In this document: positions 6,464 to 64,000 of the stretch, piece by piece
How the letters are laid out: the number at the start of each line of letters is the position of its first letter
Numbering within the stretch: position 1 is the stretch's first letter
NCBI GenBank assembly: GCA_001931875.2
Contig: MSJH02000215.1
Location: 1-64,000 of the forward strand
Source of the DNA: Byssochlamys sp. IMV 00236
Lineage: Eukaryota; Ascomycota; Eurotiomycetes; Eurotiales; Thermoascaceae
Length of the DNA: 64,000 bases
Reading direction: 5' to 3'
Program-made: the position numbers and the translations under genes
Notes under the pieces: generated by a model
What the model saw: the letters and a program-made list of their open reading frames with translations, nothing else
What the model was told of the DNA's origin: nothing
The model's database searches: none

Positions 6464-8317
6464 TTATTTACGATAAAATGCCAAGATGTTGCTTGCCTTT
6501 TTGTGAATGAACCTCAGAACGCCATCCAACCTTTTGTCTATAATCTCTGGACTATAAACAGCAACAGTGAATGGTGCGGTAGCAGGAGGATCCGTTGGGT
6601 TAGCGATCAAGAATCCACTTGGAAGCTTCTTGAGTGCTTGAACGATGATATCAAGGTTAATCTGGGTAAGATCAGAAGGAGGTCTGCTAAATGTGCCAAC
6701 TTTGGGTAATTGCTGATCCCATTCTACGTCAACTTTAATCATCCGGACTATACTGTTGACGTAAACATCCATTATCTCAGGGTTCACCAAGGTCTTGGTT
6801 ATATATACCAACAATTCCTGGTAGTATTTCAAGAATGGTTCATAAACAAACACTTTGGTCGTTAATGGACGCATAAGGAAACCTGGATGCTCTTTAAAGT
6901 CACCACTCGTCATCAATTCTTCTTTAAATGAATATCTTCCTACGGTTGCATCCATATCGTGAGGCATATAAATGATTTGACCACCATTTAAAGGATCCAT
7001 ATAGAGATAATAGTTATTGGCAGTCGCCATGTAACCGTCACTCAATCCTAACAAGTTCTCTATGACCATTCTATATATAAACATTTAGTTTGTATACTCT
7101 GTTATTATGCCCCATATCTACTTACGCTCGAATAAATGATTCCATATTCATCTTTTGTTCCCAAACTTCAATAGGCGTCGTCTCCACTGAAGAGTCACGT
7201 ATGAATCTAGTAAAATCTTGAAGAGGGACTAAATCTTTCAGAGTGACACCTTCCGAGGGCTCTTCGACATCGTATTGTCCTACAGCGTACTTGGTAATAT
7301 CTTCTTCATAAGCCAAATCTGATACAGCAAATGCAAGACCTTGTTTAAAGAATCCTTGACCTTGATACAAACGCCCTACTCGGTAATTTTTAATGTTGCC
7401 TGCAAACTCGTTCTGAAGCCATTGTGTGTTGAAGTCTTCGATGATTCCAAATAACCCAATAGGTCGATTATTTATAAATAATCTAAAGCTCATAAAGTAA
7501 GCTATCGCGTCTAGCGTGCATCTCCTCCTTTCACTTACCGAACATAAGAAAACCCACTGACAGGTAAACCAACAGACTGTAGAACAGAGTGACATATAGC
7601 CTCACGCACATATGAAGGGTCCTTGGCAAGGGCACGCAACCTGACGTTTGTATAGCCAAATAAGGATGTACCATCTTTTATCTTTACGGTGTAAGACACC
7701 TTAGGAACCCAACGCGAACCACGACCAGCCAAAGAGAGTTTGACGGTCTTGTAAGTGTAAACATCATCCAGCCTATAAATAAAATTAGCCAATTTTATCA
7801 CTTGCGCCATATGCTTAAATTACCCAATATAAGTCATACCAACGTCTAACGTGATGTCTTGGAGTTGATTTCCGTGCAAGTAATCAATAGCCGTCTGATT
7901 ACCACGGAGATGAATAGTGGGTATCTGGTTTGCAATATGCAAATCGGACCTTATTCTGCGGATAGGTGCCAAATCGGGCATGACTTTAGGTAAAGTGAAA
8001 ATGTCGTGTACATTGATGGGCCTGTTGAAGAATTCGTGGCCGGTTACATCGACATCAAAATCAATTCGACGGTTAAAGGACTCAGATTCGACGATTTGAT
8101 GTTGTCCATCTACAATCACATATCTGTAGTACATGGCTGGATCCTGAGCTCGACCTTTGTAAAGAAGTGGCTCGTAGCTTGAAGGGCTTAAAAGGGTAAG
8201 ACGACCATCGACCAAGACACCTACAGACTGTCCAGCAGAAACAGAGACAATCACGCTATATGTTACCCATCTGGCATGAACAACGGACAGGACTATAGAT
8301 AGCAATACTTTTTGCAT
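6464..8317 (-). CDS. CotH-family protein A (spore-coat protein H-like, secreted)
   Basis: Four exons: 8317-7824, 7772-7539, 7482-7126 and 7070-6464, about 560 residues. Residues 1-15 form a signal peptide (MQKVLLSIVLSVVHA). The CotH kinase-like fold shows RRIRSDLHIANQIPTIHL, KLSLAGRGSRW, YVREAICHSVLQSVGLP, LFINNRPIGLFGIIEDF, MVIENLLGLSDGYMA and IYMPHDMDATVG; the last resembles the metal-binding DxD segment. Bacillus CotH phosphorylates spore-coat proteins, and in Mucorales the family is spore- and hypha-surface-associated, with some members acting as invasins. The protein ends just after the domain with no Ser-rich tail or GPI signal, so it is probably secreted rather than anchored. The inverted-repeat boundary visible in this window (7353) falls inside exon 3 only because the window ends there. 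Confidence 0.9.
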
Positions 8318-8612
8318 TTGTCAGTAACCATGGTTATCCTTTTTCTTGTTCTTTACCAAAGACTATAGTCATCATTAAATGAATAATGGAAAGAAAGAAG
8401 GGGGATAAGAAATGTACAGATTAAATACACATTTGTATAATAAAAAGTTAATCTTGCCCAAAAGAATAATTTGATACCAAAACAAGTGGACATCTGCCCA
8501 TCAAGGGCACACCCCCTTGAAGAATTCTTCATAACTTATTAAGCTGTACATATGAAAGGTAGAAAATATATAATAACGTTTATTTGATTATTATTTTTTT
8601 TAAGAAGGGGAG

Positions 8613-11600
8613 TTATGAGATTGCTAAAAGCACAATTTGAGATACATTTACATCTTCACTTCTAACTGCCAATTCAAAAGCAACTCCAGTACTTGTGCTA
8701 AAGGTCATTCTACACCTTGCCAACACTCTGCTTCCATCCAAAAATGTGCCAGATAAAAGTAAAGTATGTACACTATTGTTCTTTGGTGCCTCAGTGCCTT
8801 CCAAGGGTTGCATACCCAATAAGTCGATTATTGAATCACATGCACCTATTGAGATATGGTTAGCTTAAATATGCTCAATAGTTCTGTCATACTTACTCTT
8901 CAAGTTGTGAGCCTTTTCCTTATCCAGGGCAAATGTATCAATCGCTTCATTTTCCTCCAACTTTTCAAATTCTTCAGCAAAGTTAGAGACATAGGATGCA
9001 CGGATGTAATCACTCGTGGTCACTTCGATATCTTCAACTTGGTATTCATCATCAAATCCTTCAGGATCTGCCTCTCCTGTAGTAGGATCGCAGTCTTTGA
9101 CAACAAACTTGAGTGTGTTTGTGAAGGTGACTATGGACAAATAAGCACAAGGCTTCTAATTTATATATATGTATATATTTACCATTCGCGAGCTCCTCAG
9201 GGTCTTCTTGCTCAAAGGCAACATAGATTGCGCCTGTGACATTGTATTCGAGCTTCTCTGCAGGCAGCTCGGCTACCTGTACAAGCCCATCTATCTCAGG
9301 TTGCATAATCATATGGACATTTTCTAACAATTGGTCATTCAACGTGTTTGTGCAGTTGAATTGGAACACGATGTGCTTGGCAAACGTGTGCTTGATACAG
9401 TGGATGACGTATTCCGTTTCACTTTCTGTTAGTTCAATAGGTTTACTTGAGCTCTTGAACAGTGTGCCGAATGATGCAAATTCAGGAATAGCTGCCAATT
9501 GTTCTGCATAGATTGCTTGTTGATCCAAGCTGGAAATGAGCGTATTCTTTCCAGAGACAGGTGTGGCCACACCAGGACTGGAAACGGCAGGTGCTCCTTT
9601 GGCGGAGGGAGCTGATAATAAAGGAAGAATAGCAGTATCATTAGATCGGTTACCTATATAAAAGTTATATTGACCGCATTCTCTCTTCTTTATAAAGACT
9701 TACGGCGTCGCTCTTCTTCTTCTTGCGATTTGCTGATAACTGGAATTGTATCAAGCTTGAATTCTTTTGCATTTTCATGTGAATTGTTGATGTATTCGAC
9801 AAGTTGGCGCTCAAGCATAGGCAAAGCGTATGTAGAATCTTTACAAGAATGAGTAAAAACGCGCTTATCTCATTTCTCCCTTTCTTACCGTCTGTAACGT
9901 ATTTCTTGGCAATATCTTGGTTGTCCATTGTAGAAAGATACAATGTAGCACGATCACGAACTTCATCATTCACATCATCCAAGCAACGATTCAACAACAC
10001 ACGAACACTCTTCCTAACTTCTTCATCATGGCTATTAACACCAAATTTGGCAAGAGCACTGACGGCAGCAGCACGTACGATGGAGTTTTCCAAGATAACA
10101 CGATTATAAATATATCGAATGTATTTGGTAGGAGTTGCCGTCTTGGGGCCTTCGATACCCAACAGATGCAAGACACGCACAGACAGTTTGGTGAATTCAC
10201 AGTCTTCAATAAATTCACACAGGTGGGAAAGGGCAGTATCTTTGGATTCTGGAATATACTTGACCATATCAAAGATAGCCTCGACAACTGCTTTCTTAAA
10301 GTTGTATCCTCCTTCATCACGCAAGACGTTGCTCAAGAAGGAAAGCATGACGGCTTGTTTAGCTGGGAACTTTAAGCAAAGTGATCGAATGGCCTCTACG
10401 ACGATCACCTTGAATTCATCAGAGATATCGTTCATAAAACCAGAAATCTGCTTCATCAATCGATCGACGGATGCTTCATTGCCTGTCTTTAACAATGTAG
10501 TGATGGCGAATGTAGCAATACTACGATTAGAATCAGTAATCAAATTTTCAATATCTAAATTGCAAGGAGCAACGACTGATGGGTTATTGATGGAGAGTTT
10601 GTTAAGTGTACGAATGGCAGCAAATCGAAGCGTGGCTTTTGGAGATGACAAGAATAATTGAAGAACTGCTATGGCAGGGTGAAGCTCTTTAGCTGAAATG
10701 TCTGTCATGTCACATATAGCACGGGCTGCTTCCAAATTGACCATGTCGCTCTTGTGTCTAAGGAAACCCTCGAATAATTCATACACTTTGCGAGTAGAGC
10801 TATGATTATTTGTTATACATGGTTAGAAACCAGGATCATGTTGTCTTTTTAATTTTTTATGTGTACCTTGGATCATCTTCCATGACTTTGGAAGCAAATC
10901 GAATCAACATACAGACTGCAGAAGGATTCTTGAGGACGTTGGAGCTACTGCCTCCACCCAAGAAGCCACCAGAGCTACGTGCACCTGAAAAGGTTTGGAC
11001 CAATTTTGCAATAGCCATACGATCATGTTGACGAATCAAGTACAATAAACCAATAGCATGGTACTGGTGGATATTGCTTGTAGAAATAACAACTTGGTTT
11101 TGGTTACTTGATCCAGAACTAAAATAACTTGAAGCAGAAGCAAAACTTAAACCACCTGAGGGCTTTGTGTTGATAGCTTCTTGAACTTCATTTGACCATC
11201 GACGGATGATATCTCTGGCAACATCAAATAGATGATAGGATGAAACTAAAGCTGCAGAAGAGACAGAAGGTGTCTTGTCAACAATAGCAGCCTTCAAAAT
11301 ACGTTCGATGCCTTGGATCATAGAGGGCTATACATTATGTTATTGTCGTCTGATATATGTGTCTCATTCTTTTTGCCCTTACATCTGTAATTAAACATAA
11401 AGCACGAATGGCGTTTGCTCTGTAGATAGTTTCTTGTTTGGACTGAATGTCTTTAATAAGAGATTGAGTCACCATAATAACATCTTCAGCAATTCCTGAA
11501 AGCTCCTTGATGACCAAGTACATCATTTGACGAAGAGATGTCTATTATATAAACTATAAGACACACACACATTTCGGTTGTTATTCTTGTTTTACTTTAC

Positions 11601-11891
11601 ATCTTTTGATTGAAACAATTTAATGACGTTGAAGAATAAGTCGGTTGCTTCCTTTACAGTGAAAGGTTCACCAATGTAAAGCAAGTAAATAATCTTGGTC
11701 AATAACAATCGACATTTTCTCGCGTTAATAGGTGAACTGTTAAACACTCTGGCTTCTTGAAGTACAACAGTTTTATCGACGTGGTAAAATAACCCAGCGT
11801 CTCCTCCTATTAAGTAAAAGAGATGAATATACTTTTTGTTGTTGCTGATGTCTGTTTTACCTGCTTCTTCGTCACGCTTATTATAGTTCAT
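8613..11891 (-). CDS. SEC21: Coatomer subunit gamma (gamma-COP)
   Basis: A multi-exon gene from ATG 11891 (short first exon encoding [11 protein letters not shown]) to a stop at 8613. The N-terminal adaptin-like HEAT/ARM solenoid shows [55 protein letters not shown] and [15 protein letters not shown] linker rich in Ala/Pro/Ser ([14 protein letters not shown]) joins it to the appendage domain (about 9570-8613) with [30 protein letters not shown] and the C-terminal [19 protein letters not shown]. It is an essential subunit of the COPI coat, binding Arf1 and dilysine cargo for Golgi-to-ER retrieval. It lies between the two CotH genes on the same strand, which appears coincidental. Confidence 0.95.
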
Positions 11892-12188
11892 GAGGAATGC
11901 GTTACTTTAGGATGAGCTGTGATTGTATATGAAAAAGGGAAAAAAGGGAAACAGCCAAATGTGTGTTTAAATTTTACAGGTCGATTTGATTGGATAATGT
12001 AACAGGCTGCTACACTCTCTGCCTTAGTGCAGCCAATTAGAGAGCTAAACAACTGAGATTGAACTAGATATGATGGGTTTAATCATGAAAAAGAATGCCC
12101 TGAGCATATCCAAAGCATAGTAAATATAGCAAGTTTTATAGTGTAAAAGAAAATCTATTTTAAAAAAGTATTTCTTTATTCTGTTTCT

Positions 12189-14039
12189 TTATAAACTTTG
12201 ATTATAAAAACTAAGTACAGCAGCACTCTTTTTAGCAATGAACTCTTGTGGAGGTAGATATTGCTCAGGGATCTTGGTCCAATTGGTCAAAAAGCCAGGT
12301 GGCATAATTTTGGCTATTTCAGTCATGTTCCCCCCAGGCTCAGGAGATGGAGCTCCATGAGTAAGCTTTGGCAGAGACATATCCCATTCGATATCAGGCT
12401 GAATCATTTTCGTAACACTGTCGAAGAATGGGTTCATAACAGTAGGATTTATCAATGATTTTGTGACGTTGACCAGCAGATTTTGGTAAGGTGCAGAAAA
12501 GTAATCATAAGAAAAGAACTTCTTGGACAAAGGTCGGAAGGTCAAGCCAGGGAATGCAGTGTAGTTTCCTGTGAGTAACAGGTTCATCTCAAATAGGCCA
12601 GTACCAAGCGTAGTATCAAAATCGTAAGGGATATAGATCATACGGCCATCCTCAGGGTTCTTGTAAAAGTTGAAATTATTTGACATTGTCATCAGGGCAT
12701 CAGAGAATCCCAACAAGTTCTCAATAGTCATACTATAGAAAAAGAATTAGATGAATACAGTCACTCATGTTTGTCACTTACGCTCGAAGGAAAATGTCAA
12801 CATCTATGCGTTTTTGCCAATCATCAATAGTTGTCGTGTTTGAAGCGTCATGAATAAACTTTGTAAATTCTTGTAAGTCAGAAAAGTCTTGTGAGCTATC
12901 CTTTGAAGGACCGGCTTTGATTTTGTATTCTCCCAAGGTGTATGTGGTAATGTTATCATAATAACTAAGATCAGACATGTACTGCCATTCTTGTTGGTTC
13001 ATACCCGCAAGAATTGCTTGGTAAAGGTAACCAGACTTGTAGTTCTTGTCTCCGTCTTTGAATTCACTTGCCAGCCAAGGATCTTGAAATGTTTCGATAA
13101 CACCATATAAACCAACAGGCTTATTATTAATAAACAATCTAGATATTAGAGTATTAGCGTATGTATGACTACAGGCAGAACATGATTACCTAACATATGA
13201 GAAATCACTGGCAGGTACACCCACAGCCTTGAGTGCAGAATGAACAGCTTTTTCACGTACATAAGTGGGATCCATTGCCATGGCTCGTAACTTTAGATTT
13301 TTGTAGCCAAACAGTGTATCATCACTCTTCTTTTTTAACTTTATTCCGAATGAAACTTTGTCGACCATACGTGAGGAGCGACCAGCCAAAGATACTTTTA
13401 CACCTTCAAATGTTTCGATTTTATCCAGTCTACAGTAACGCATGTTAATAAACTCATTAAAGGGATATCATAGGATGCTATACCCAATATAAGTAAAGTT
13501 CAATTCAATGTCAATATCCTCAGTAGCGTTCTTGAGCAAATAGTCCACGGCCGTCTCATTTCCCCATAAATGATAGGTAGGTATTTGACCTTCAGCATGA
13601 AGATCTGATTTTATTCTGTGCAAGATAGGCACAGGAGTCATCACTTGTGGGAGAGACGTGATGTTGTGCGTGTTGAGAGTACGATTAAAGAATTCATTTG
13701 ATGTATCCTTTTGAATTGGACCTCTAGTGAATGGTTCAGGAACTTTAACAGTATTGGATTCTATGATCGCATAGTGATATTCCTTTTGAGCAATAGGAGC
13801 TTTGCCTTGATACAAGATGCCTTGGTTTGCTTGTAAGGGAAATGGAGTACCGTCTACTACAACTGCGATACCCATATTGGGTGGAGGTGAACTGATGACA
13901 CTATAAGTAATATTTTGTTGCTGTGCTTGAGCACTTGCAAATATCGTCACAAAAAAGGGGACGGCTAGAAGTGGCAAGTATATTAATAATCAAGTATCTC
14001 TTCCAATAAACCTTACTTACATATTTTGCTGAATAACAT
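12189..14039 (-). CDS. CotH-family protein B (secreted)
   Basis: I place the start at 14039: a short first exon (MLFSKI) spliced at an ATAT|GTAAGT donor to VPFFVTIFASAQA completes a good signal peptide of about 20 residues. Without that exon the frame would need a non-ATG start. The body parallels CotH A block for block: LHRIKSDLHAEGQIPTYHL, KVSLAGRSSRM, YVREKAVHSALKAVGVP, LFINNKPVGLYGVIETF, MTIENLLGFSDALM and IYIPYDFDTTLG. Several N-glycosylation sequons are present (NIT, NRT, NET, NAT, NFT). It ends right after the domain (FYNQSL) without a GPI tail. It is a clear paralogue of CotH A, separated from it by SEC21, and divergent from the AIR-like gene. Confidence 0.9.
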
Positions 14040-28658: not shown

Positions 28659-31600
28659 ATGTCTTCGCCTATTCAACCTCCTCCAAATATACGGTAAATA
28701 ATGGTATATAAGCTAAAGACAGTCTAGCTAAACTTGTCTATTAGGTCTCCTTCGGGTACTTCTCAGACAACGGCAGCAGCAACCTCTGTAGGAGCAACAG
28801 CAACAGTAGCAGTGGTATCTCCATATGCTCATCATCTCCCACCTCCCAATTTACCACCTGCTAATACAGCAACTACAAACGGAGCTTTACCTCCACCACC
28901 CAGGGTAACAGAATTGCCTTCTATTCTCTCTCCTCCACACGGCACTTCACCTTCGGCATTTAGTAATTCAGCACCACAGCAATCTCAAGTACAGCAACCA
29001 CACACAACTCTACCACCACCTAGTTCACTTGCGTCGGAATCTACCGTCTTACCTTTACCACCACCATTAATCCCATCGCGTACATCAACCCCTCCTTTCA
29101 CAGAACGTAGACCTAGCATTGTTCGTACCCCAGCTAATCCGCCTCCCCCTCCACCTTCTCAGCCAGCAGCACCCCCAGCAACACAGCAACAACAACAGCA
29201 GCAACAAGCAAGCTCTCCTCAAAGTGGAGGATATAGACCACTGAACGTACGAGACGCATTGACCTACCTTGATCAAGTCAAGGTACGATTCTCTGACCAG
29301 CCGGATGTTTATAACCGATTCTTGGACATCATGAAAGATTTTAAGAGCCAAACGTATGTTTTAATAATGAAATGATTTCATAATAGACCGACTAAAAAAA
29401 AGCTTGTTATAGCATTGATACGCCAGGCGTGATTGAACGCGTCTCTGCACTATTCAAAGGCCACCCAACACTCATTTCAGGTTTCAATACGTTTTTACCA
29501 CCAGGTTATCGCATCGAGTGTTCTACGGATCCTCGTGAGCCTGATCTGATTACAGTCACAACACCCAGCGGCGTTACAACGACAACAGGACGACGATTAC
29601 CAGATCAAGAACATCATTTCCCCCATGGACATCATCCTCACGTTCCTCCACCACAGGCTTATTATCCTTATAGTCAGATGCATCATCCATTACCTGTGCC
29701 TCCTCCCAATACAGCCGTTCCACCACAAAATATGATGCCTCCTTATCGTTCAGCGGTTATGCCACCACCACCGACAGTGCCTCCCATTCCACATCATCAT
29801 CAACAGCAGCAGTCACTACCTCCACAACAACAACAACAAACTATGCCGTCGCAACCAATGATGGTTCCTCCACGTCATGCGAGCCCTTCACGCCAATCGG
29901 TTGTAGATGATGACGAATCACCTCTGGAATTCAATCATGCAATCAACTATGTCAACAGAATCAAGGTATATCCCTCTCTTTTAAAGGGGATCATGGTTTA
30001 CTTATCTTTCTTTGTAGACTCGATTTGCACATGATCCAGATACTTATAAACAATTCTTGGAAATTCTTCAAACATATCAAAAGGATAATCGACCCATTCA
30101 AGAAGTAAGATATTTTTTTTAAAAAAAAAAGGAAAAAGTATTCATGTTTCTAGGTATATGCTCATGTTCAATATCTGTTCAATGGCGCACCTGATCTATT
30201 AGACGAGTTTAAGCAGTTTTTGCCTGATTTTACAGGACAATCAGCAGGCAGTCTATTTGACTCAATATCACACAGTGGGTCTAAACGAAGTGTTGGCACA
30301 GGTGGTTCAGTATCCCAAAGTATGCTTCCACCCGGTAAAAAGAAGCGAACGAATAATGTAAGACAAAAGAGAAAAGAAAAAAGCAAGATATTGAACCTTT
30401 TTTATAGATGATCAAGAGACCCAAATATAAGTCAGATGTAGACCCATTTAGCTTTTCGAATTTTGATCCCGCAAGACCATCCGTGTCAACAGAAGAGATT
30501 GAGTTATTCGAACGTATACGTAAACACATTGGTAATAAACCATCCTATGAAGAGTTCCTCAAGACCTTAAACTTGTACACACAACAAATTGTGGATATGG
30601 ATACACTGGTCGACCAGGTGTCTATCTTTATTGGTAACAATCAAGAACTGTTTGAATGGTTCAAGAATATGATTGGATACGAGCCAAGAGAGAAGCCTAT
30701 TGAAAAGCCGACGACGATCATACCCAAACCAGACCTGAATCTCTGCAAGACGACGGGAAATCCTCATGAGAGTCCTAGTTATCGTATCGTACCCAAGGAA
30801 TGGCAGAATCAACCATGTTCAGGTCGTGATCAGCTATGTTGGGAGGTGCTGAATGATGAATATGTGTCGCATCCTATCTGGGCAAGTGAGGAGGACGGAT
30901 TTGTGGCGAGTAAGAAGAGCCAGTACGAAGAGGCAATGCATCGATGTGAAGAAGAGCGATATGACTACAATATGAACATTGATGCCAATTTGAATGTGAT
31001 TGCGTTATTAGAGCCCATTGCTCACAAGATTGAACAGATGACGCCAGAAGAAAAAAATAACTTTAAGCTGAAGCCAGGACTGGGAGGTCAATCAGTTAGT
31101 ATATATGAAAGAATCATCAAGAAGATATACGATAAAGAAAGAGGAAGCGAGATCATCGAGTTGCTCTACTCTAATCCAGCGCAGGTGGTGCCTATCTTGC
31201 TAAAGAGGTTGAAACAAAAGGACGAAGAATGGAAGCGAGCACAACGGGAATGGAATAAGATATGGAGAGAGCAGGATGCAAAGAACTTTTATAGATCATT
31301 AGATTATCAAGGCATTACGTTTAAGAGTAACGATAGGAAAGCAATGGCGCCAAAATCCTTGGTCAATGAAATCGAAAGCCTGTTTCAAAAGAACAGCAAT
31401 AAAAAGAATAACAATAGCAACTGTCAATTCAAGTTTGAATTCAAGGATCAGGGCGTGTTCAAGGATTGTACAAGAATCATTTATTCATTTATTGACAGAC
31501 AGTCTGGTTATACAAACAGCGACAGAGAAAAGATACGACTGTTTATCGAATCATTTATCCCTCTTTGCTTTCAAGTCGATAGTTCCATTATTTATGAGCA

Positions 31601-32980
31601 CACTGTGGATGATAACCAGGATGAAGATGAAGACGGCGATAATGACGATGACCAAGCCAGTGTAAACACAACTGACTCTGTTGACAAATCAAGGAAGTCG
31701 TCCACTCCTACCAAAAAGGCAGAGGATGACCATACCATCGAATCCTTACGTGAAATACTGACACAGGCTGTAGCAAGCCGGAGTACAAACCTATTAGACG
31801 CTGCAGCTGTAGCTATTGCTCCTGATCAGACAAAGAGAAACTTTTATACGTTCTTTTGTAACACGGCCTTCTATTGCTTCTTTAGGTTATATCAAATGCT
31901 TTATGAAAGATTAGACAGACTGAAAGCTATGGATGATACGATGCGAAAGAATCCTAGTATGGGTAAACGCGTGAATAAAGTAGCTCTTGACCTTGGATTA
32001 TATAGTACGCGTTACGATGGTAAGAAAATGTTTATGTATTATGACAGTATTCTTACCTTTTTTTTTGTAGACATTGATCTTTCCAAAGGTTATTATCAAG
32101 CTGTCTTGGAATTGATTGACAAGTTCTTTGATGGTGACATTGATCAAACACTATTTGAAGAATATACTCGTTATGTCTTTGTGACTGACGCGTATCTTTT
32201 GTTTACAATTGACAAATTGGTTCATACAATGATTAAGCAGGTAAAAAAAGAAAAGAACCTTTTGATGGTAATCTAATCCATTGACAATAGATACAAACTA
32301 TTATTACTGATTCAAAATCTCTTGAATTGATTCGATTATTCAAATGGGACAAAGGACTGGAATCTATGTCACCTAGATCATTAGCTATTTATCGTTTAAG
32401 GGCTGAAGATATTGCTGGTTCATCAGATAACCTGTTTAAAATTAATTTTGTAAGAAAGATATGTGTATGCAATACAATGTTATACTTAAACTCAATAGAA
32501 TAATGAATCTCAATACATGACTATTCAATTAATTGGTAAAGATGACTATATGATGGAGCCAACGGCAGAAGACAAGTATGAGGATTATGTTGCAAGCTAT
32601 ATGGACTGGCTTAATGTAACTGATGGTATTGACCTTTCCAAGACAAAGAAATCGTTTTTGCGCCGGTAAGTGGGGCAATACTGTATCTGGCTTTTTGCAT
32701 CTAACTCCTTAAAAGTAACTTGAGGCCACAGGATGAACACTTGAATAGAATTTTCGTGCGATCTAAACTTCAATACAAGATTGATCAAAGTAGCTACCAC
32801 ATGTATTATATCGTTGGCTCAGAAGATGTCTTTATTCGCCCTCAACCAAAGAAAGAAAGAGAACGGGCATCCAACTGGGAAAAATGGCTATCATCTCCTA
32901 CCACAGGTTGGTCAAAAGGCTTAGATGAAGAAACACGTACTCTAATGGAAAGAGAAGCAAAAGTTTTATTTAAACAATAA
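28659..32980 (+). CDS. SIN3: SIN3 transcriptional corepressor scaffold
   Basis: ATG 28659 ([12 protein letters not shown]) is spliced to a long Pro/Gln/Thr-rich N-terminus. Three paired amphipathic helix domains follow. PAH1: [18 protein letters not shown] to [10 protein letters not shown] (29240-29520). PAH2: [15 protein letters not shown] to [10 protein letters not shown] (29930-30235). PAH3: [20 protein letters not shown] to NMIGYEP (30495-30690). The histone-deacetylase interaction region is clear ([48 protein letters not shown]). The C-terminal conserved part runs to 32980, with an acidic [14 protein letters not shown] loop. SIN3 recruits Rpd3-type deacetylases to promoters. Its 3' end is 50 bp from that of LCB1. 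Confidence 0.95.
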
Positions 32981-33030: not shown

Positions 33031-34820
33031 TTATTTCTTCCATTTGCTAAAGATTTTAATGATGGCTGCTTTTACAACATTGGCTGCCTTGTCATTTTCC
33101 TTTTTACTAAGTCCTATTGTCGTGTGAATCTTGATGCTTGGCTTGGGACACTTCAATTCTTGGTCATAGACATATTTGGCTCTTGTCACCAGTACGCCTT
33201 GTGCGGCACATTCATCAACAACATCCTGTAACAATCTTTCTTCTGTTTCCCTGCTTGTTTGAGGAGGAAGAAAAGTGTCCTTGATACGGATATGAAAGAA
33301 AGGTGAGGGGCATTGCGTATCAGATGATTCCAAATAGATGTAAGGTTCTAGTGATTTGTGCAAGAGTATCTGACGGAAAGAGGAGACTCTTTCCTGTAAT
33401 TCGTCAAGAAGTGTGGGCTGTTGGCTGATTATACGGAACGCTTCGGATGCAGACACAGCAAGCATAGCAGGCATGGAAGCTGAGAAACAATAAGCAAGGC
33501 CTGACAGACGTTGATGATCAATCACTTCAACACTGCCAGCACAGAAACCACCTGAGCCACAAAGTGCGTTGGCTAAAGAACCAACGATCATGTCAATCTC
33601 TTTAGCCTATGATAACAATGAGTCCCTTTGTTTTCATCTTGTTTTTGTTACTTACATCAATGTTGTACAAGTCGGTTAAACCTGCCCCGCGCTTGCCTAG
33701 AACACCAATCGATTGGGACTCATCCAATATCAATCTGTACTTGAATTTCTTTTTGATTTCAACCTAAAGAGGGGTTATTTACAGGAAGGAAAACCCATGA
33801 TCCAAACTTACCAATTTATCCAAGGGAGCAATGTCACCAAAATTGGCGAAAAGACCCTCTGTGACAATGAAGCGACGAGTTAAGCGTTTCTTATGCTACA
33901 TATGATATAAGATACATGATTTTTTAAGGGTATATATATTCTTACCTTGATATGTTCAGCTTGAATTTCATTCAATACCCTTTCTAAATCTTCCATGTCA
34001 TTATGTTTATAGAAACGAACGATGGAACGTGAGATTTGGACACCCTTTTGAACGGCAAAGCATACACCATCATCTCTATTAAAAGATTAATTTCTATAAA
34101 TGAAAAAGTATGTGTCAGCTTACACAACAAGATAATCACCGCGCTTAGCAAATGCTGGGATGACAGAAGAGATGGTAGAGAAACCTTGAGCGTAAATGAT
34201 GGCATCATCAGTACCGATAAAGCGAGCGATATCACGTTCCAACTCCATATGAACGTCAATTGTACCATAGAAACCTGGAGGACCACAAGAGCCAACACCA
34301 TAGTTTCTTAAAGTGTCTACTGCCTTTGTACGAATTTGTTCGGAAGCAGTTAAATTTAAAAAGTTTGAAGTTGCCAAGTTCATCAAGGACTTGGCATGTC
34401 CAACGACTTTAGCTTTAGCAGATTGAGGTCCGGTGAGAACAGGTATTTTTTCGAGATTGAAGCGATCATAAGAAGACAGTTTAGGTGCTAATGGCTCTGG
34501 CTGCCACTCTTCAACAAGGTCGTCAATTTCCTAACAATTTTAAATAAGCTTTTATAGACAAATATATATGTGTTTTTTACTTTTTCGGTTAAAATGACAT
34601 TATTATCATTGGGTTTATATTTTCTTGAAAGCATATATTTGATAGCAAAAAAGACTAGGAACAGTTCAAGAGCCACACGAAATGGATCATTTTGGTAAGC
34701 ATTCTTTAAATAGGATATAGCTAAATTAGAGCCAGGAATAGATATTATAAGTTCAAGTAGATGACTGATGGTCGAATTCATGAACAGGGCAAGATCTTGC
34801 ACCACCTGTTCATTAGACAT
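33031..34820 (-). CDS. LCB1: Serine palmitoyltransferase subunit 1
   Basis: Start ATG 34820 ([20 protein letters not shown]). A hydrophobic segment ([16 protein letters not shown]) is the ER anchor. Six or so exons carry the alpha-oxoamine synthase fold: [19 protein letters not shown] (with the Cys at the position mutated in human HSAN1), [55 protein letters not shown] and [20 protein letters not shown]. As expected for LCB1, the PLP lysine block lacks Lys, since catalysis is by LCB2. The complex condenses serine and palmitoyl-CoA, the first step of sphingolipid synthesis. This is the innermost intact gene of the left arm and is transcribed away from the repeat tip. Confidence 0.95.
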
Positions 34821-35048
34821 CTTCTATAAAATAAAAGAAAGAAAGAAAGAAAAAAAGGGCGTCCAAATACAGAAACACAGCCATTTTAAGTGTTACACTT
34901 TAATTTTATCCAATCACAAATTATAGTTCCTTCACTTTATACTTGATCAATCGATCGTATATGTCAAGAGAGACAAGTTGCGATGGACATTTCGATCGGA
35001 TATCTTAAGGAGAGAGAAAAAGGGGGAGGAATGATATAATAAGGTCTG

Positions 35049-35726
35049 ATGACTATTTTCTGGGTTAAGCAGTATAGCATGTGTCCTGACAACATCTTTG
35101 ACAGTTGTAACAGAGCAGACCGTAAATGTATTATGACCAAAGAGCATAAAAAGGCTCTCGTCAATTTCATTGATGCTAATCCATCTGCTGCTGTGGTTGA
35201 AGTAACTGAGCACTTGTTAAGCCGATTCAATGATCTTAAAGTTTCACGCAGTACTGTTTATAACTTTATGAAAAGAGAATGCAACCTTTCGTTGAAAAAG
35301 GCTGATTTTCATTCCATCGAAAGAAACAGCCCAGCAAAATACAGATATGAGATTTCTGACGAACTGTGTGTTCCTTGATGAGTCTGCTTTTGATATAAAC
35401 ATGAAACGGCCAAGAGCTTGGTCTACAAAAGGTACCCGTGCTATTGTTACCAGACCTACCATGAGAGCAAATACGACGTCTATATATTGGCCGCTATTTC
35501 TGCCTCAGGTTTGATTGCAGTCGACGTAAAAAAAAAACCAAGACCTGCGAAAAAGAGAAAGGCTGAAGGATATGTAAGCTCTGGAACTGTAACAGGCCAC
35601 TATGTTAGTTTCTTAAAAATGACTCTCGATGAAATGGACAAACATCCACATATGAAAGGCCATTATATAGTTATGGACAATGCACCCATTCACACGCATG
35701 AAAACATAAAGAAGTACATTGAGTAT
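35049..35726 (+). pseudogene. Tc1/mariner (IS630-type) transposase, frame-damaged and cut at the inverted-repeat junction
   Basis: The N-terminal helix-turn-helix part reads EHKKALVNFIDANPSAAVVE and FNDLKVSRSTVYNFMKREC. The frame then breaks near 35340-35347, with an apparent small deletion. FLTNCVFLDESAFDINMKR (first catalytic Asp) reads in the next frame, and the original frame resumes near 35480 after an apparent TA-repeat change, with YILAAISASGLIAVDV and HYIVMDNAPIH (second Asp) in the 100-bp spacer. After EYR (about 35724) the DNA turns into the reverse complement of its own upstream sequence, so the third acidic residue and 3' terminal repeat are missing. Certainly inactive as it stands. 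Confidence 0.88.
35627..35726. other. Unique 100-bp spacer at the tip of the inverted repeat
   Basis: The left arm (…AAAATGACTCT) and the inverted right arm match up to 35626/35727 and diverge at 35627/35726. The spacer continues the transposase frame with no insert, adapter-like sequence or N run. Only an A/T base or two could be junction microhomology. Confidence 0.9.
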
Positions 35727-36304
35727 AGAGTCATTTTTAAGAAACTAACATAGTGGCCTGTTACAGTTCCAGAGCTTACATATCCTTCAGCCTTTCTCTT
35801 TTTCGCAGGTCTTGGTTTTTTTTTTACGTCGACTGCAATCAAACCTGAGGCAGAAATAGCGGCCAATATATAGACGTCGTATTTGCTCTCATGGTAGGTC
35901 TGGTAACAATAGCACGGGTACCTTTTGTAGACCAAGCTCTTGGCCGTTTCATGTTTATATCAAAAGCAGACTCATCAAGGAACACACAGTTCGTCAGAAA
36001 TCTCATATCTGTATTTTGCTGGGCTGTTTCTTTCGATGGAATGAAAATCAGCCTTTTTCAACGAAAGGTTGCATTCTCTTTTCATAAAGTTATAAACAGT
36101 ACTGCGTGAAACTTTAAGATCATTGAATCGGCTTAACAAGTGCTCAGTTACTTCAACCACAGCAGCAGATGGATTAGCATCAATGAAATTGACGAGAGCC
36201 TTTTTATGCTCTTTGGTCATAATACATTTACGGTCTGCTCTGTTACAACTGTCAAAGATGTTGTCAGGACACATGCTATACTGCTTAACCCAGAAAATAG
36301 TCAT
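35727..36304 (-). pseudogene. Mirror copy of the transposase fragment
   Basis: Same N-terminal and first-Asp parts and the same two frame breaks as the left copy, but it lacks the MDNAPIH block, because the arm stops 100 bp short of where the left copy is cut. The antisense frame runs on into the complement of the spacer and ends after a short nonsense tail. Confidence 0.85.
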
Positions 36305-38372: not shown

Positions 38373-41300
38373 TTATTGTTTAAATAAAACTTTTGCTTCT
38401 CTTTCCATTAGAGTACGTGTTTCTTCATCTAAGCCTTTTGACCAACCTGTGGTAGGAGATGATAGCCATTTTTCCCAGTTGGATGCCCGTTCTCTTTCTT
38501 TCTTTGGTTGAGGGCGAATAAAGACATCTTCTGAGCCAACGATATAATACATGTGGTAGCTACTTTGATCAATCTTGTATTGAAGTTTAGATCGCACGAA
38601 AATTCTATTCAAGTGTTCATCCTGTGGCCTCAAGTTACTTTTAAGGAGTTAGATGCAAAAAGCCAGATACAGTATTGCCCCACTTACCGGCGCAAAAACG
38701 ATTTCTTTGTCTTGGAAAGGTCAATACCATCAGTTACATTAAGCCAGTCCATATAGCTTGCAACATAATCCTCATACTTGTCTTCTGCCGTTGGCTCCAT
38801 CATATAGTCATCTTTACCAATTAATTGAATAGTCATGTATTGAGATTCATTATTCTATTGAGTTTAAGTATAACATTGTATTGCATACACATATCTTTCT
38901 TACAAAATTAATTTTAAACAGGTTATCTGATGAACCAGCAATATCTTCAGCCCTTAAACGATAAATAGCTAATGATCTAGGTGACATAGATTCCAGTCCT
39001 TTGTCCCATTTGAATAATCGAATCAATTCAAGAGATTTTGAATCAGTAATAATAGTTTGTATCTATTGTCAATGGATTAGATTACCATCAAAAGGTTCTT
39101 TTCTTTTTTTACCTGCTTAATCATTGTATGAACCAATTTGTCAATTGTAAACAAAAGATACGCGTCAGTCACAAAGACATAACGAGTATATTCTTCAAAT
39201 AGTGTTTGATCAATGTCACCATCAAAGAACTTGTCAATCAATTCCAAGACAGCTTGATAATAACCTTTGGAAAGATCAATGTCTACAAAAAAAAAGGTAA
39301 GAATACTGTCATAATACATAAACATTTTCTTACCATCGTAACGCGTACTATATAATCCAAGGTCAAGAGCTACTTTATTCACGCGTTTACCCATACTAGG
39401 ATTCTTTCGCATCGTATCATCCATAGCTTTCAGTCTGTCTAATCTTTCATAAAGCATTTGATATAACCTAAAGAAGCAATAGAAGGCCGTGTTACAAAAG
39501 AACGTATAAAAGTTTCTCTTTGTCTGATCAGGAGCAATAGCTACAGCTGCAGCGTCTAATAGGTTTGTACTCCGGCTTGCTACAGCCTGTGTCAGTATTT
39601 CACGTAAGGATTCGATGGTATGGTCATCCTCTGCCTTTTTGGTAGGAGTGGACGACTTCCTTGATTTGTCAACAGAGTCAGTTGTGTTTACACTGGCTTG
39701 GTCATCGTCATTATCGCCGTCTTCATCTTCATCCTGGTTATCATCCACAGTGTGCTCATAAATAATGGAACTATCGACTTGAAAGCAAAGAGGGATAAAT
39801 GATTCGATAAACAGTCGTATCTTTTCTCTGTCGCTGTTTGTATAACCAGACTGTCTGTCAATAAATGAATAAATGATTCTTGTACAATCCTTGAACACGC
39901 CCTGATCCTTGAATTCAAACTTGAATTGACAGTTGCTATTGTTATTCTTTTTATTGCTGTTCTTTTGAAACAGGCTTTCGATTTCATTGACCAAGGATTT
40001 TGGCGCCATTGCTTTCCTATCGTTACTCTTAAACGTAATGCCTTGATAATCTAATGATCTATAAAAGTTCTTTGCATCCTGCTCTCTCCATATCTTATTC
40101 CATTCCCGTTGTGCTCGCTTCCATTCTTCGTCCTTTTGTTTCAACCTCTTTAGCAAGATAGGCACCACCTGCGCTGGATTAGAGTAGAGCAACTCGATGA
40201 TCTCGCTTCCTCTTTCTTTATCGTATATCTTCTTGATGATTCTTTCATATATACTAACTGATTGACCTCCCAGTCCTGGCTTCAGCTTAAAGTTATTTTT
40301 TTCTTCTGGCGTCATCTGTTCAATCTTGTGAGCAATGGGCTCTAATAACGCAATCACATTCAAATTGGCATCAATGTTCATATTGTAGTCATATCGCTCT
40401 TCTTCACATCGATGCATTGCCTCTTCGTACTGGCTCTTCTTACTCGCCACAAATCCGTCCTCCTCACTTGCCCAGATAGGATGCGACACATATTCATCAT
40501 TCAGCACCTCCCAACATAGCTGATCACGACCTGAACATGGTTGATTCTGCCATTCCTTGGGTACGATACGATAACTAGGACTCTCATGAGGATTTCCCGT
40601 CGTCTTGCAGAGATTCAGGTCTGGTTTGGGTATGATCGTCGTCGGCTTTTCAATAGGCTTCTCTCTTGGCTCGTATCCAATCATATTCTTGAACCATTCA
40701 AACAGTTCTTGATTGTTACCAATAAAGATAGACACCTGGTCGACCAGTGTATCCATATCCACAATTTGTTGTGTGTACAAGTTTAAGGTCTTGAGGAACT
40801 CTTCATAGGATGGTTTATTACCAATGTGTTTACGTATACGTTCGAATAACTCAATCTCTTCTGTTGACACGGATGGTCTTGCGGGATCAAAATTCGAAAA
40901 GCTAAATGGGTCTACATCTGACTTATATTTGGGTCTCTTGATCATCTATAAAAAAGGTTCAATATCTTGCTTTTTTCTTTTCTCTTTTGTCTTACATTAT
41001 TCGTTCGCTTCTTTTTACCGGGTGGAAGCATACTTTGGGATACTGAACCACCTGTGCCAACACTTCGTTTAGACCCACTGTGTGATATTGAGTCAAATAG
41101 ACTGCCTGCTGATTGTCCTGTAAAATCAGGCAAAAACTGCTTAAACTCGTCTAATAGATCAGGTGCGCCATTGAACAGATATTGAACATGAGCATATACC
41201 TAGAAACATGAATACTTTTTCCTTTTTTTTTTAAAAAAAATATCTTACTTCTTGAATGGGTCGATTATCCTTTTGATATGTTTGAAGAATTTCCAAGAAT

Positions 41301-56621: not shown

Positions 56622-57313
56622 TCTTTATTTATTAGAGCTGTAAGAAAGAGAGAAAAAAAAAAGAGAAAAAAATGAGCAGTGACTGCAAATGCAGCTCAGC
56701 TTCATTCGGTCTCTCAAAGGAGGGCGCCTCTTGGTTAATGCAACTCTTTATGCTGTGTGTGATTAAAGTGAAAAAGATAAATAGACTTGATATCATTTGA
56801 TTGTTAGATCTGTCTATTCAATGAACTCATGCCATACGCTAATCTGCTTAGTAATAAAAGAGTTTATTATCAGCGCCACAGAGAGCAAGATTTGCTTAAT
56901 AGCGTGATCTCTACAGCTGTCTATTATTCCTATTGGACAGAAATGTGCTGCGAGACAATGGAGCTTTTCTTTTGACGTAACACCAACTACTGCTTAGCAA
57001 CTGTTACTTTTTTTATCTCTTCGTGATTAGCTTGGCTAAAATATACTTCATGCATTCTGTCTAACCTTCCAAACTTGGTCGTACGGTCAGCCACTTTGAA
57101 ATGAAAAGATCTTCTTCAGGTATCACCATACTTGATCCGGTCTCACGGTCTTTTTTGATGGAGACAGACGTCAGTGAACATTGACATTGGGCTAAGCATT
57201 GCTAAGCATTTTTTTTTTGTTCGTTTGTGTAAGACTGATGATTGACACCAAACAAATAAATAATCCTGTCTCGGCTCTTCTTTTGCCTTTTTTCATTTTA
57301 CAATCGTTAAAGG
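56622..57313. promoter_or_regulatory. Divergent intergenic region, mirror of 14040-14731
   Basis: Same AATGCTTAGC-type repeat (about 57191-57204) and purine/pyrimidine tracts; no gene. Confidence 0.45.
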
Positions 57314-59164
57314 ATGTTATTCAGCAAAATATGTAAGTAAGGTTTATTGGAAGAGATACTTGATTATTAATATACTTGCCACTTCTAGCCGTCCCCTTTT
57401 TTGTGACGATATTTGCAAGTGCTCAAGCACAGCAACAAAATATTACTTATAGTGTCATCAGTTCACCTCCACCCAATATGGGTATCGCAGTTGTAGTAGA
57501 CGGTACTCCATTTCCCTTACAAGCAAACCAAGGCATCTTGTATCAAGGCAAAGCTCCTATTGCTCAAAAGGAATATCACTATGCGATCATAGAATCCAAT
57601 ACTGTTAAAGTTCCTGAACCATTCACTAGAGGTCCAATTCAAAAGGATACATCAAATGAATTCTTTAATCGTACTCTCAACACGCACAACATCACGTCTC
57701 TCCCACAAGTGATGACTCCTGTGCCTATCTTGCACAGAATAAAATCAGATCTTCATGCTGAAGGTCAAATACCTACCTATCATTTATGGGGAAATGAGAC
57801 GGCCGTGGACTATTTGCTCAAGAACGCTACTGAGGATATTGACATTGAATTGAACTTTACTTATATTGGGTATAGCATCCTATGATATCCCTTTAATGAG
57901 TTTATTAACATGCGTTACTGTAGACTGGATAAAATCGAAACATTTGAAGGTGTAAAAGTATCTTTGGCTGGTCGCTCCTCACGTATGGTCGACAAAGTTT
58001 CATTCGGAATAAAGTTAAAAAAGAAGAGTGATGATACACTGTTTGGCTACAAAAATCTAAAGTTACGAGCCATGGCAATGGATCCCACTTATGTACGTGA
58101 AAAAGCTGTTCATTCTGCACTCAAGGCTGTGGGTGTACCTGCCAGTGATTTCTCATATGTTAGGTAATCATGTTCTGCCTGTAGTCATACATACGCTAAT
58201 ACTCTAATATCTAGATTGTTTATTAATAATAAGCCTGTTGGTTTATATGGTGTTATCGAAACATTTCAAGATCCTTGGCTGGCAAGTGAATTCAAAGACG
58301 GAGACAAGAACTACAAGTCTGGTTACCTTTACCAAGCAATTCTTGCGGGTATGAACCAACAAGAATGGCAGTACATGTCTGATCTTAGTTATTATGATAA
58401 CATTACCACATACACCTTGGGAGAATACAAAATCAAAGCCGGTCCTTCAAAGGATAGCTCACAAGACTTTTCTGACTTACAAGAATTTACAAAGTTTATT
58501 CATGACGCTTCAAACACGACAACTATTGATGATTGGCAAAAACGCATAGATGTTGACATTTTCCTTCGAGCGTAAGTGACAAACATGAGTGACTGTATTC
58601 ATCTAATTCTTTTTCTATAGTATGACTATTGAGAACTTGTTGGGATTCTCTGATGCCCTGATGACAATGTCAAATAATTTCAACTTTTACAAGAACCCTG
58701 AGGATGGCCGTATGATCTATATCCCTTACGATTTTGATACTACGCTTGGTACTGGCCTATTTGAGATGAACCTGTTACTCACAGGAAACTACACTGCATT
58801 CCCTGGCTTGACCTTCCGACCTTTGTCCAAGAAGTTCTTTTCTTATGATTACTTTTCTGCACCTTACCAAAATCTGCTGGTCAACGTCACAAAATCATTG
58901 ATAAATCCTACTGTTATGAACCCATTCTTCGACAGTGTTACGAAAATGATTCAGCCTGATATCGAATGGGATATGTCTCTGCCAAAGCTTACTCATGGAG
59001 CTCCATCTCCTGAGCCTGGGGGGAACATGACTGAAATAGCCAAAATTATGCCACCTGGCTTTTTGACCAATTGGACCAAGATCCCTGAGCAATATCTACC
59101 TCCACAAGAGTTCATTGCTAAAAAGAGTGCTGCTGTACTTAGTTTTTATAATCAAAGTTTATAA
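57314..59164 (+). CDS. CotH-family protein B, right-arm copy
   Basis: Read on the plus strand: ATG 57314, donor after ATAT at about 57332, acceptor CTTCTAG before CCGTCCCC at about 57389, completing the signal peptide. The body and stop (59162-59164) match 12189-14039. Confidence 0.9.
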
Positions 59165-59461
59165 AGAAACAGAATAAAGAAATACTTTTTTAAAATAGAT
59201 TTTCTTTTACACTATAAAACTTGCTATATTTACTATGCTTTGGATATGCTCAGGGCATTCTTTTTCATGATTAAACCCATCATATCTAGTTCAATCTCAG
59301 TTGTTTAGCTCTCTAATTGGCTGCACTAAGGCAGAGAGTGTAGCAGCCTGTTACATTATCCAATCAAATCGACCTGTAAAATTTAAACACACATTTGGCT
59401 GTTTCCCTTTTTTCCCTTTTTCATATACAATCACAGCTCATCCTAAAGTAACGCATTCCTC

Positions 59462-62400
59462 ATGAACTATAATAAGCGTGACGAAGAAGCAGGTAAAACA
59501 GACATCAGCAACAACAAAAAGTATATTCATCTCTTTTACTTAATAGGAGGAGACGCTGGGTTATTTTACCACGTCGATAAAACTGTTGTACTTCAAGAAG
59601 CCAGAGTGTTTAACAGTTCACCTATTAACGCGAGAAAATGTCGATTGTTATTGACCAAGATTATTTACTTGCTTTACATTGGTGAACCTTTCACTGTAAA
59701 GGAAGCAACCGACTTATTCTTCAACGTCATTAAATTGTTTCAATCAAAAGATGTAAAGTAAAACAAGAATAACAACCGAAATGTGTGTGTGTCTTATAGT
59801 TTATATAATAGACATCTCTTCGTCAAATGATGTACTTGGTCATCAAGGAGCTTTCAGGAATTGCTGAAGATGTTATTATGGTGACTCAATCTCTTATTAA
59901 AGACATTCAGTCCAAACAAGAAACTATCTACAGAGCAAACGCCATTCGTGCTTTATGTTTAATTACAGATGTAAGGGCAAAAAGAATGAGACACATATAT
60001 CAGACGACAATAACATAATGTATAGCCCTCTATGATCCAAGGCATCGAACGTATTTTGAAGGCTGCTATTGTTGACAAGACACCTTCTGTCTCTTCTGCA
60101 GCTTTAGTTTCATCCTATCATCTATTTGATGTTGCCAGAGATATCATCCGTCGATGGTCAAATGAAGTTCAAGAAGCTATCAACACAAAGCCCTCAGGTG
60201 GTTTAAGTTTTGCTTCTGCTTCAAGTTATTTTAGTTCTGGATCAAGTAACCAAAACCAAGTTGTTATTTCTACAAGCAATATCCACCAGTACCATGCTAT
60301 TGGTTTATTGTACTTGATTCGTCAACATGATCGTATGGCTATTGCAAAATTGGTCCAAACCTTTTCAGGTGCACGTAGCTCTGGTGGCTTCTTGGGTGGA
60401 GGCAGTAGCTCCAACGTCCTCAAGAATCCTTCTGCAGTCTGTATGTTGATTCGATTTGCTTCCAAAGTCATGGAAGATGATCCAAGGTACACATAAAAAA
60501 TTAAAAAGACAACATGATCCTGGTTTCTAACCATGTATAACAAATAATCATAGCTCTACTCGCAAAGTGTATGAATTATTCGAGGGTTTCCTTAGACACA
60601 AGAGCGACATGGTCAATTTGGAAGCAGCCCGTGCTATATGTGACATGACAGACATTTCAGCTAAAGAGCTTCACCCTGCCATAGCAGTTCTTCAATTATT
60701 CTTGTCATCTCCAAAAGCCACGCTTCGATTTGCTGCCATTCGTACACTTAACAAACTCTCCATCAATAACCCATCAGTCGTTGCTCCTTGCAATTTAGAT
60801 ATTGAAAATTTGATTACTGATTCTAATCGTAGTATTGCTACATTCGCCATCACTACATTGTTAAAGACAGGCAATGAAGCATCCGTCGATCGATTGATGA
60901 AGCAGATTTCTGGTTTTATGAACGATATCTCTGATGAATTCAAGGTGATCGTCGTAGAGGCCATTCGATCACTTTGCTTAAAGTTCCCAGCTAAACAAGC
61001 CGTCATGCTTTCCTTCTTGAGCAACGTCTTGCGTGATGAAGGAGGATACAACTTTAAGAAAGCAGTTGTCGAGGCTATCTTTGATATGGTCAAGTATATT
61101 CCAGAATCCAAAGATACTGCCCTTTCCCACCTGTGTGAATTTATTGAAGACTGTGAATTCACCAAACTGTCTGTGCGTGTCTTGCATCTGTTGGGTATCG
61201 AAGGCCCCAAGACGGCAACTCCTACCAAATACATTCGATATATTTATAATCGTGTTATCTTGGAAAACTCCATCGTACGTGCTGCTGCCGTCAGTGCTCT
61301 TGCCAAATTTGGTGTTAATAGCCATGATGAAGAAGTTAGGAAGAGTGTTCGTGTGTTGTTGAATCGTTGCTTGGATGATGTGAATGATGAAGTTCGTGAT
61401 CGTGCTACATTGTATCTTTCTACAATGGACAACCAAGATATTGCCAAGAAATACGTTACAGACGGTAAGAAAGGGAGAAATGAGATAAGCGCGTTTTTAC
61501 TCATTCTTGTAAAGATTCTACATACGCTTTGCCTATGCTTGAGCGCCAACTTGTCGAATACATCAACAATTCACATGAAAATGCAAAAGAATTCAAGCTT
61601 GATACAATTCCAGTTATCAGCAAATCGCAAGAAGAAGAAGAGCGACGCCGTAAGTCTTTATAAAGAAGAGAGAATGCGGTCAATATAACTTTTATATAGG
61701 TAACCGATCTAATGATACTGCTATTCTTCCTTTATTATCAGCTCCCTCCGCCAAAGGAGCACCTGCCGTTTCCAGTCCTGGTGTGGCCACACCTGTCTCT
61801 GGAAAGAATACGCTCATTTCCAGCTTGGATCAACAAGCAATCTATGCAGAACAATTGGCAGCTATTCCTGAATTTGCATCATTCGGCACACTGTTCAAGA
61901 GCTCAAGTAAACCTATTGAACTAACAGAAAGTGAAACGGAATACGTCATCCACTGTATCAAGCACACGTTTGCCAAGCACATCGTGTTCCAATTCAACTG
62001 CACAAACACGTTGAATGACCAATTGTTAGAAAATGTCCATATGATTATGCAACCTGAGATAGATGGGCTTGTACAGGTAGCCGAGCTGCCTGCAGAGAAG
62101 CTCGAATACAATGTCACAGGCGCAATCTATGTTGCCTTTGAGCAAGAAGACCCTGAGGAGCTCGCGAATGGTAAATATATACATATATATAAATTAGAAG
62201 CCTTGTGCTTATTTGTCCATAGTCACCTTCACAAACACACTCAAGTTTGTTGTCAAAGACTGCGATCCTACTACAGGAGAGGCAGATCCTGAAGGATTTG
62301 ATGATGAATACCAAGTTGAAGATATCGAAGTGACCACGAGTGATTACATCCGTGCATCCTATGTCTCTAACTTTGCTGAAGAATTTGAAAAGTTGGAGGA

Positions 62401-62740
62401 AAATGAAGCGATTGATACATTTGCCCTGGATAAGGAAAAGGCTCACAACTTGAAGAGTAAGTATGACAGAACTATTGAGCATATTTAAGCTAACCATATC
62501 TCAATAGGTGCATGTGATTCAATAATCGACTTATTGGGTATGCAACCCTTGGAAGGCACTGAGGCACCAAAGAACAATAGTGTACATACTTTACTTTTAT
62601 CTGGCACATTTTTGGATGGAAGCAGAGTGTTGGCAAGGTGTAGAATGACCTTTAGCACAAGTACTGGAGTTGCTTTTGAATTGGCAGTTAGAAGTGAAGA
62701 TGTAAATGTATCTCAAATTGTGCTTTTAGCAATCTCATAA
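59462..62740 (+). CDS. SEC21: SEC21 (gamma-COP), right-arm copy
   Basis: Mirror of 8613-11891; solenoid, linker and appendage are all present, with the stop at 62738-62740. Intact. Confidence 0.93.
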
Positions 62741-63035
62741 CTCCCCTTCTTAAAAAAAATAATAATCAAATAAACGTTATTATATATTTTCTACCTTTCA
62801 TATGTACAGCTTAATAAGTTATGAAGAATTCTTCAAGGGGGTGTGCCCTTGATGGGCAGATGTCCACTTGTTTTGGTATCAAATTATTCTTTTGGGCAAG
62901 ATTAACTTTTTATTATACAAATGTGTATTTAATCTGTACATTTCTTATCCCCCTTCTTTCTTTCCATTATTCATTTAATGATGACTATAGTCTTTGGTAA
63001 AGAACAAGAAAAAGGATAACCATGGTTACTGACAA

Positions 63036-64000
63036 ATGCAAAAAGTATTGCTATCTATAGTCCTGTCCGTTGTTCATGCCAGATGGGTAACATATAGCGT
63101 GATTGTCTCTGTTTCTGCTGGACAGTCTGTAGGTGTCTTGGTCGATGGTCGTCTTACCCTTTTAAGCCCTTCAAGCTACGAGCCACTTCTTTACAAAGGT
63201 CGAGCTCAGGATCCAGCCATGTACTACAGATATGTGATTGTAGATGGACAACATCAAATCGTCGAATCTGAGTCCTTTAACCGTCGAATTGATTTTGATG
63301 TCGATGTAACCGGCCACGAATTCTTCAACAGGCCCATCAATGTACACGACATTTTCACTTTACCTAAAGTCATGCCCGATTTGGCACCTATCCGCAGAAT
63401 AAGGTCCGATTTGCATATTGCAAACCAGATACCCACTATTCATCTCCGTGGTAATCAGACGGCTATTGATTACTTGCACGGAAATCAACTCCAAGACATC
63501 ACGTTAGACGTTGGTATGACTTATATTGGGTAATTTAAGCATATGGCGCAAGTGATAAAATTGGCTAATTTTATTTATAGGCTGGATGATGTTTACACTT
63601 ACAAGACCGTCAAACTCTCTTTGGCTGGTCGTGGTTCGCGTTGGGTTCCTAAGGTGTCTTACACCGTAAAGATAAAAGATGGTACATCCTTATTTGGCTA
63701 TACAAACGTCAGGTTGCGTGCCCTTGCCAAGGACCCTTCATATGTGCGTGAGGCTATATGTCACTCTGTTCTACAGTCTGTTGGTTTACCTGTCAGTGGG
63801 TTTTCTTATGTTCGGTAAGTGAAAGGAGGAGATGCACGCTAGACGCGATAGCTTACTTTATGAGCTTTAGATTATTTATAAATAATCGACCTATTGGGTT
63901 ATTTGGAATCATCGAAGACTTCAACACACAATGGCTTCAGAACGAGTTTGCAGGCAACATTAAAAATTACCGAGTAGGGCGTTTGTATCAAGGTCAAGGA
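63036..64000 (+). CDS. CotH-family protein A, right-arm copy, 3' part outside the window
   Basis: Exons 63036-63529, 63581-63814 and 63871 onward. The window ends in exon 3 after YRVGRLYQGQG. No break is seen before the edge. Confidence 0.88.

Follow-up and report, generated by a model that had tools for sequence, protein, structure and literature searches.

Most chimeras formed during multiple displacement amplification (MDA) are inverted (406 of 475) and carry short complementarity; the report describing them rules out hairpin self-priming as a main source and prefers annealing to a different displaced strand (PMC1855051). After whole-genome amplification, palindromic PacBio reads have been reported at 43.6–47.8% for Arabidopsis and 11.8% for gorilla, against 0.5% in unamplified material, and a missed hairpin adapter is described as a source of palindromic reads even when no amplification is involved (PMC6218980). 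Fold-backs are put at about 0.55–0.6% of nanopore genomic reads and are virtually absent from PacBio HiFi data (PMC12870357). Comparable structures also arise in cells. In yeast with working MRE11 and SAE2, the hairpins of fold-back inversions are described as having large loops, with a median of 36 nt and sometimes many thousands (PMC7467729), and hairpin-capped extrachromosomal DNA has been named as a route to inverted copy-number variants (PMC10766183).

Here, we analysed a contig (C215) that folds back on itself in an assembly of 840 contigs and 47,425,162 bases (G000). The window, that is, the whole stretch of DNA analysed, consists of the first 64,000 of the 71,352 bases of C215. While the contig does contain the inverted repeat, there is no good evidence for its presence in the fungus, and C215 is very probably a technical fold-back, produced by sequencing or assembly, and not a giant chromosomal palindrome.

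Results

C215 is a single perfect inverted repeat

A preliminary description of the window had proposed a near-perfect inverted repeat under one constant mirror sum (71353), with arms of at least 28.3 kb, a 100-bp spacer at 35627–35726 and an outer end lying outside the window. The mirror comparison bears out this geometry. In the window, 37 of the 28,324 mirrored pairs failed, all at 35627–35676 and thus within the 100-base spacer, and when the full contig was compared under the same sum the same number failed, with none outside the spacer. The arms proved larger, at 35.6 kb each, and perfect where they had been called near-perfect: bases 1–35626 and 35727–71352 mirror each other as reverse complements without a single mismatch over 35,626 positions. 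Judged by its length, this identity is beyond chance. The outer ends of the arms are the two contig ends, at mirrored bases, so that the whole of C215 forms one inverted repeat, with the following parts.

1–35626, + strand: left arm, apparently in native orientation (the spacer is colinear with it); 0 mismatches against the mirrored right arm
35627–35726, + strand: spacer of 100 bases, the unduplicated native continuation of the transposase relic of the left arm
35727–64000, continuing to contig base 71352 beyond the window, − strand: right arm, exact reverse complement of the left arm

Fold-back artefacts have identical arms that are symmetric about the tip, as is the case here (0 mismatches in 35,626, co-terminal ends), and PMC12870357 describes an opposite-strand partner no more than 200 bases away, to be compared with the 100-base spacer of C215. 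In a chromosomal inverted duplication, unique DNA would be found flanking at least one arm; in C215, both arms reach the contig ends. A real inverted duplication in the strain would have begun with a break or a stalled fork within the transposase relic, which folded back at a short inverted repeat around a loop of some 100 bases; copying of the arm would then have produced a large chromosomal palindrome. The absence of unique DNA beside either arm, the ends at mirrored bases and the lack of a single base difference in 35,626 all speak against this scenario, as does the instability of long perfect palindromes in vivo. A real palindrome of more than 35.6 kb would nevertheless also show perfect arms and shared ends if it had been collapsed into one unitig.

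Both ends of C215 lie inside a dispersed repeat, and a repeat is an ordinary stopping place for an assembly.

1–611, no strand assigned: dispersed repeat truncated at base 1 by the contig end and, by the mirror, also present at the other contig end; the best other copy is on C771 (90%)

Besides that on C771, many copies of this repeat were detected, all shorter or weaker. The location of the ends bears on a second biological scenario, in which C215 would exist on its own as an extrachromosomal amplicon: a palindrome of about 71 kb, linear or hairpin-capped, that truly ends where the contig ends. Arms that stop exactly at the contig ends are what a complete linear palindrome would give, and the hairpin-capped route named in PMC10766183 would provide a precedent, but ends placed inside a dispersed repeat argue against it, and we consider such a molecule extremely unlikely. 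Since no exact TTAGGG triplet occurs anywhere in the assembly, this search does not inform on a telomere-proximal end.

Three stretches of the arm (2,001, 1,869 and 1,001 bases) each had two matches at 100% in the assembly, all within C215, and no third, unfolded copy of these three stretches was found. This last result would fit a real inverted duplication.

The tip lies in a dispersed transposase

The preliminary description had also placed the tip inside a transposase, and this was indeed found to be the case.

35049–35726, + strand: broken transposase copy with two ORFs (35049–35378 and 35418–35753), cut by the junction, which the second ORF crosses

We take this transposase to be of the DDE type from its DNAPIH motif. 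It is dispersed, with at least 44 matches to 34300–35726 in the assembly, C215 itself included. Twenty loci with related copies were aligned to 35561–35960 with the strand of the spacer fixed. Eighteen of them align along the spacer, while L021 and L022 do not contain that stretch; these 18 loci are not all independent copies, as they include the duplicates L007/L008, L009/L010 and L016/L017/L018. The left-arm edge (35626/35627) is crossed by 17 of the 18, with a 2-base gap at 35623–35624 in L020, and the remaining one (L068) starts at 35640, where its own contig starts. On the other side the alignments stop at the tip, at 35725 (3 loci), 35726 (1), 35729 (1), 35730 (11) or 35736 (2). In the control, in which copies were aligned to one of their number (L013), 11 of 11 reached positions 367–399 of 400, at least 200 bases beyond the equivalent place. 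These alignments mark the left arm and the spacer as native, with only the right edge of the spacer broken, and the right arm as the copy.

One of the aligned loci, L068 (C551:1–1820), lies at the start of its contig. C551 starts within this transposase family, about 13 bases after the equivalent of the left edge of the spacer, and is another case of a contig end in the transposase repeat.

The native character of the spacer bears on two technical alternatives. Exactly 100 bases is the usual length given to a scaffolding gap of unknown size; a gap fill was rejected, as the related copies run from the left arm into the spacer. A missed long-read hairpin adapter, by which both strands of one molecule are read without being cut at the adapter, would yield palindromic reads even in unamplified material, as reported in PMC6218980. 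It should leave an adapter, or nothing, between the arms. The spacer of C215 is instead 100 bases of native transposase, a one-sided loop not expected from this route, and four adapter fragments had no exact match in 35301–36050. We therefore regard a missed adapter as very unlikely.

Sequence at the fold-back junction

The following positions were defined at the join.

35726/35727, no strand assigned: fold-back junction, native GAGTAT followed by AGAGTC of the copied strand
35625–35630, + strand: possible 6-base priming site CTCGAT; its complement ATCGAG occurs in many related copies at the place of 35725–35730

Where C215 reads GAGTAT-AGAGTC, many of the related copies have GAGTAT-CGAGGATA or a similar sequence (GAGTAT-CGAGG). 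The CTCGAT site lies about 94 bases from the place of the complementary ATCGAG. In a comparison made after the fact with 11 of 14 flanks (three were left out), 7 of the 11 gave a match of 6 bases no more than three bases out of register, and random fold points gave matches of at least 6 bases in 2.0% of 20,000 trials. The observed join lacks two bases (CG) of the product expected from this pairing. Pairing of ATCGAG with CTCGAT at 35625–35630 is thus only hinted at by the flanks of the related copies, and would apply if the C215 copy had the common flank.

The preliminary description had named reads that continue past 35726 into a normal transposase 3' end as one part of what would speak against its proposal. 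No contig continuing the C215 copy past 35726 was found in the assembly, where the best other match to 35540–35726 is at 91%, on C72. C551, which starts at the equivalent of 35639 or 35640, was considered as the continuation and rejected: it matches at 90% over 86 bases, and its onward sequence resembles that of the C152 copy. The lack of a continuing contig cuts both ways. It counts against an artefact, which should leave the normal locus somewhere, and is expected of a real inverted duplication whose native right flank was lost; it is also expected of an assembly without short contigs. Contigs below 10 kb may indeed have been dropped from this one, the shortest of 57 other contigs being 10,398 bases long.

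Redundancy and palindromes elsewhere in the assembly

The rest of the assembly shows redundancy. At 7 of 19 sampled points (19 contigs), a full 80-base second copy was present on another contig, at 10 extra places in all and at 98–100%. C230 and C231 (13,137 and 13,135 bases), compared at their ends and with one 80-base piece at mirrored places, are reverse complements at the ends over 598 of 598 and 600 of 600 bases. Members of the pairs C200/C302, C262/C263 and C361/C364 differ by 2, 13 and 53 bases respectively and their first 300 bases agree. C175 and C295, both 14,944 bases long, match at 231 of 232 aligned positions of the first 300 and at 99.89% over 2,662. Perfect stretches of 2.6–3.5 kb are shared by C192/C24, C58/C7, C250/C227 and C608/C105; by their coordinates, these look like overlapping ends, and multi-kilobase perfect matches between contigs suggest a long-read assembly. 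C212 and C731 were rejected as co-terminal twins: their shared hits fall under one constant coordinate sum, but they measure 33,598 and 59,590 bases. The assembly therefore looks inflated by duplicate contigs, one pair of them in reverse complement. That other contigs were emitted twice is a further point against a real inverted duplication.

The 57 other contigs range from 10,398 to 59,590 bases with a median of 19,938 (C495 and C810 are longer and stand outside this count). Half of C215 falls within this range, and its full 71 kb lies above all 57.

Full palindromes were not found among 20 other contigs of the 840, examined by mirrored 600-base stretches. The fold is thus not pervasive, which counts against an artefact. 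When 82 other loci (161,741 bases, partly overlapping) were compared with themselves, inverted repeats of at least 60 bases were detected only in L020, L029, L030 and L072, the longest being 367 bases at 93%. Among the matches listed and judged by eye, no other contig gave an equal pair of opposite-strand matches to one part of a query.

A stretch common to C608 (L029) and C105 (L030) contains an element whose inverted ends measure about 367 bases (93% identity). C608 and C105 each stop at one end of this element.

Gene content of the arm

Of ten ORFs compared with Pfam, nine have a match, and the families on the arm are Sin3, Adaptin_N (two), aminotransferase class I/II, CotH (two), ThiF, Vps5 and RRM. 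Two ORFs were followed in more depth.

30408–32276, + strand, mirrored at 39077–40945: ORF of a Sin3 co-repressor, apparently with retained introns (Pfam Sin3_corepress, Sin3a_C and PAH)
9665–10786, − strand, mirrored at 60567–61688: exon of an Adaptin_N protein, a coatomer or adaptor subunit (Pfam Adaptin_N)

The closest protein to the Sin3 ORF, among the best 120 of 531 proteins listed, is Sin3b of Rhizopus microsporus, encoded on a contig of 89,251 bases. The two differ by three substitutions when the intron-like gaps and adjoining residues are left out. In the assembly, the Sin3 stretch (1,869 bases) matches at 100% twice in C215 and otherwise only as two pieces of 70–74% on C476. Similarly, the Adaptin_N exon matches at 100% twice in C215, with a paralogue of 65–71% on C495 and a weak match of 21% on C810. 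No RNA genes were detected on the left arm by ARAGORN (bacterial code) or by Rfam at gathering scores.

The CotH-domain ORFs (6464–7084 and 12189–12731, − strand, also mirrored) are about 5 kb apart. Upstream of each lies one of two look-alike ORFs (7820–8317 and 13468–13977). The four ORFs are perhaps a tandem pair of CotH-type genes.

Discussion

Several features together favour a technical fold-back: neither arm has a unique flank, the arms are perfectly identical and co-terminal, and the assembly is redundant. The biological origins put forward in the preliminary description (amplification, fold-back repair, isochromosome-like ends and mating regions) found no support beyond C215 itself: there is no third copy of the three stretches searched and no unique flank, the ends are mirrored, and near-duplicate contigs occur elsewhere.

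A plausible course of events can be proposed. A Rhizopus stretch of 35.7 kb, with a transposase relic at its end, would have become joined to its own reverse complement. The join most likely arose during amplification or library making, when the 3' end of a DNA strand stopped within the transposase, paired with the opposite strand some 100 bases upstream and was extended back along it. A long-read assembler would then have walked one unitig both ways from the chimeric molecule, and both walks would have halted at the same outer base, within the dispersed repeat. If PacBio HiFi was used here, an artefact becomes less likely, as such data are described as virtually free of fold-back reads (PMC12870357). 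That hairpin self-priming is ruled out as a main source of MDA chimeras (PMC1855051) also counts against it. A literature search combining R. microsporus with multiple displacement amplification returned nothing beyond work on urban aerosols.

Alternatively, C215 could be a real, perfect 71-kb Rhizopus palindrome, chromosomal or hairpin-capped and extrachromosomal, fold-back primed on a 6-base inverted repeat within the relic of a transposon, which would double the dose of housekeeping genes (Sin3 and an adaptin-type subunit) and of CotH-domain genes. We consider this unlikely taken as a whole, and its chromosomal form, despite a junction that resembles the large-loop hairpins of yeast fold-back inversions in PMC7467729, to be improbable in its own right. 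Were it real, fold-back amplification could be examined on a perfect and very long palindrome from a fungus.

If C215 is the technical fold-back that we favour, an annotation of this assembly contains each right-arm gene in duplicate, and the redundancy at 7 of 19 points elsewhere makes the genome size and the number of genes too large. Duplicate contigs matter for R. microsporus because assembly sizes of 25 to 75 Mb have been taken there as evidence of genome duplication, according to PMC5982828. C215 should be flagged and its arm genes counted once, one arm being left out of gene counts.

Among the systems described, the inverted chimeras of MDA (PMC1855051; PMC6218980) share with C215 the inverted joining of nearby segments with an unduplicated stretch between them. 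The short complementarity reported at their joins is possible in C215, to judge from the related copies. They differ in scale, the arm of C215 being an assembled 35.6 kb and not one read. Long-read fold-back artefacts, as described in PMC12870357, have the same symmetric fold at one point with the opposite-strand partner within 200 bases; that account concerns reads, whereas C215 is a contig, and typically gives more than 11 non-mapping bases between segments for less than half of the flagged reads, whereas C215 has 100 native bases. The yeast fold-back inversions of PMC7467729 follow a comparable hairpin model, with a short stem and a loop from which the arm is copied. They are described as mostly stabilised by secondary rearrangements, whereas the arms of C215 run to the contig ends with no such join seen.
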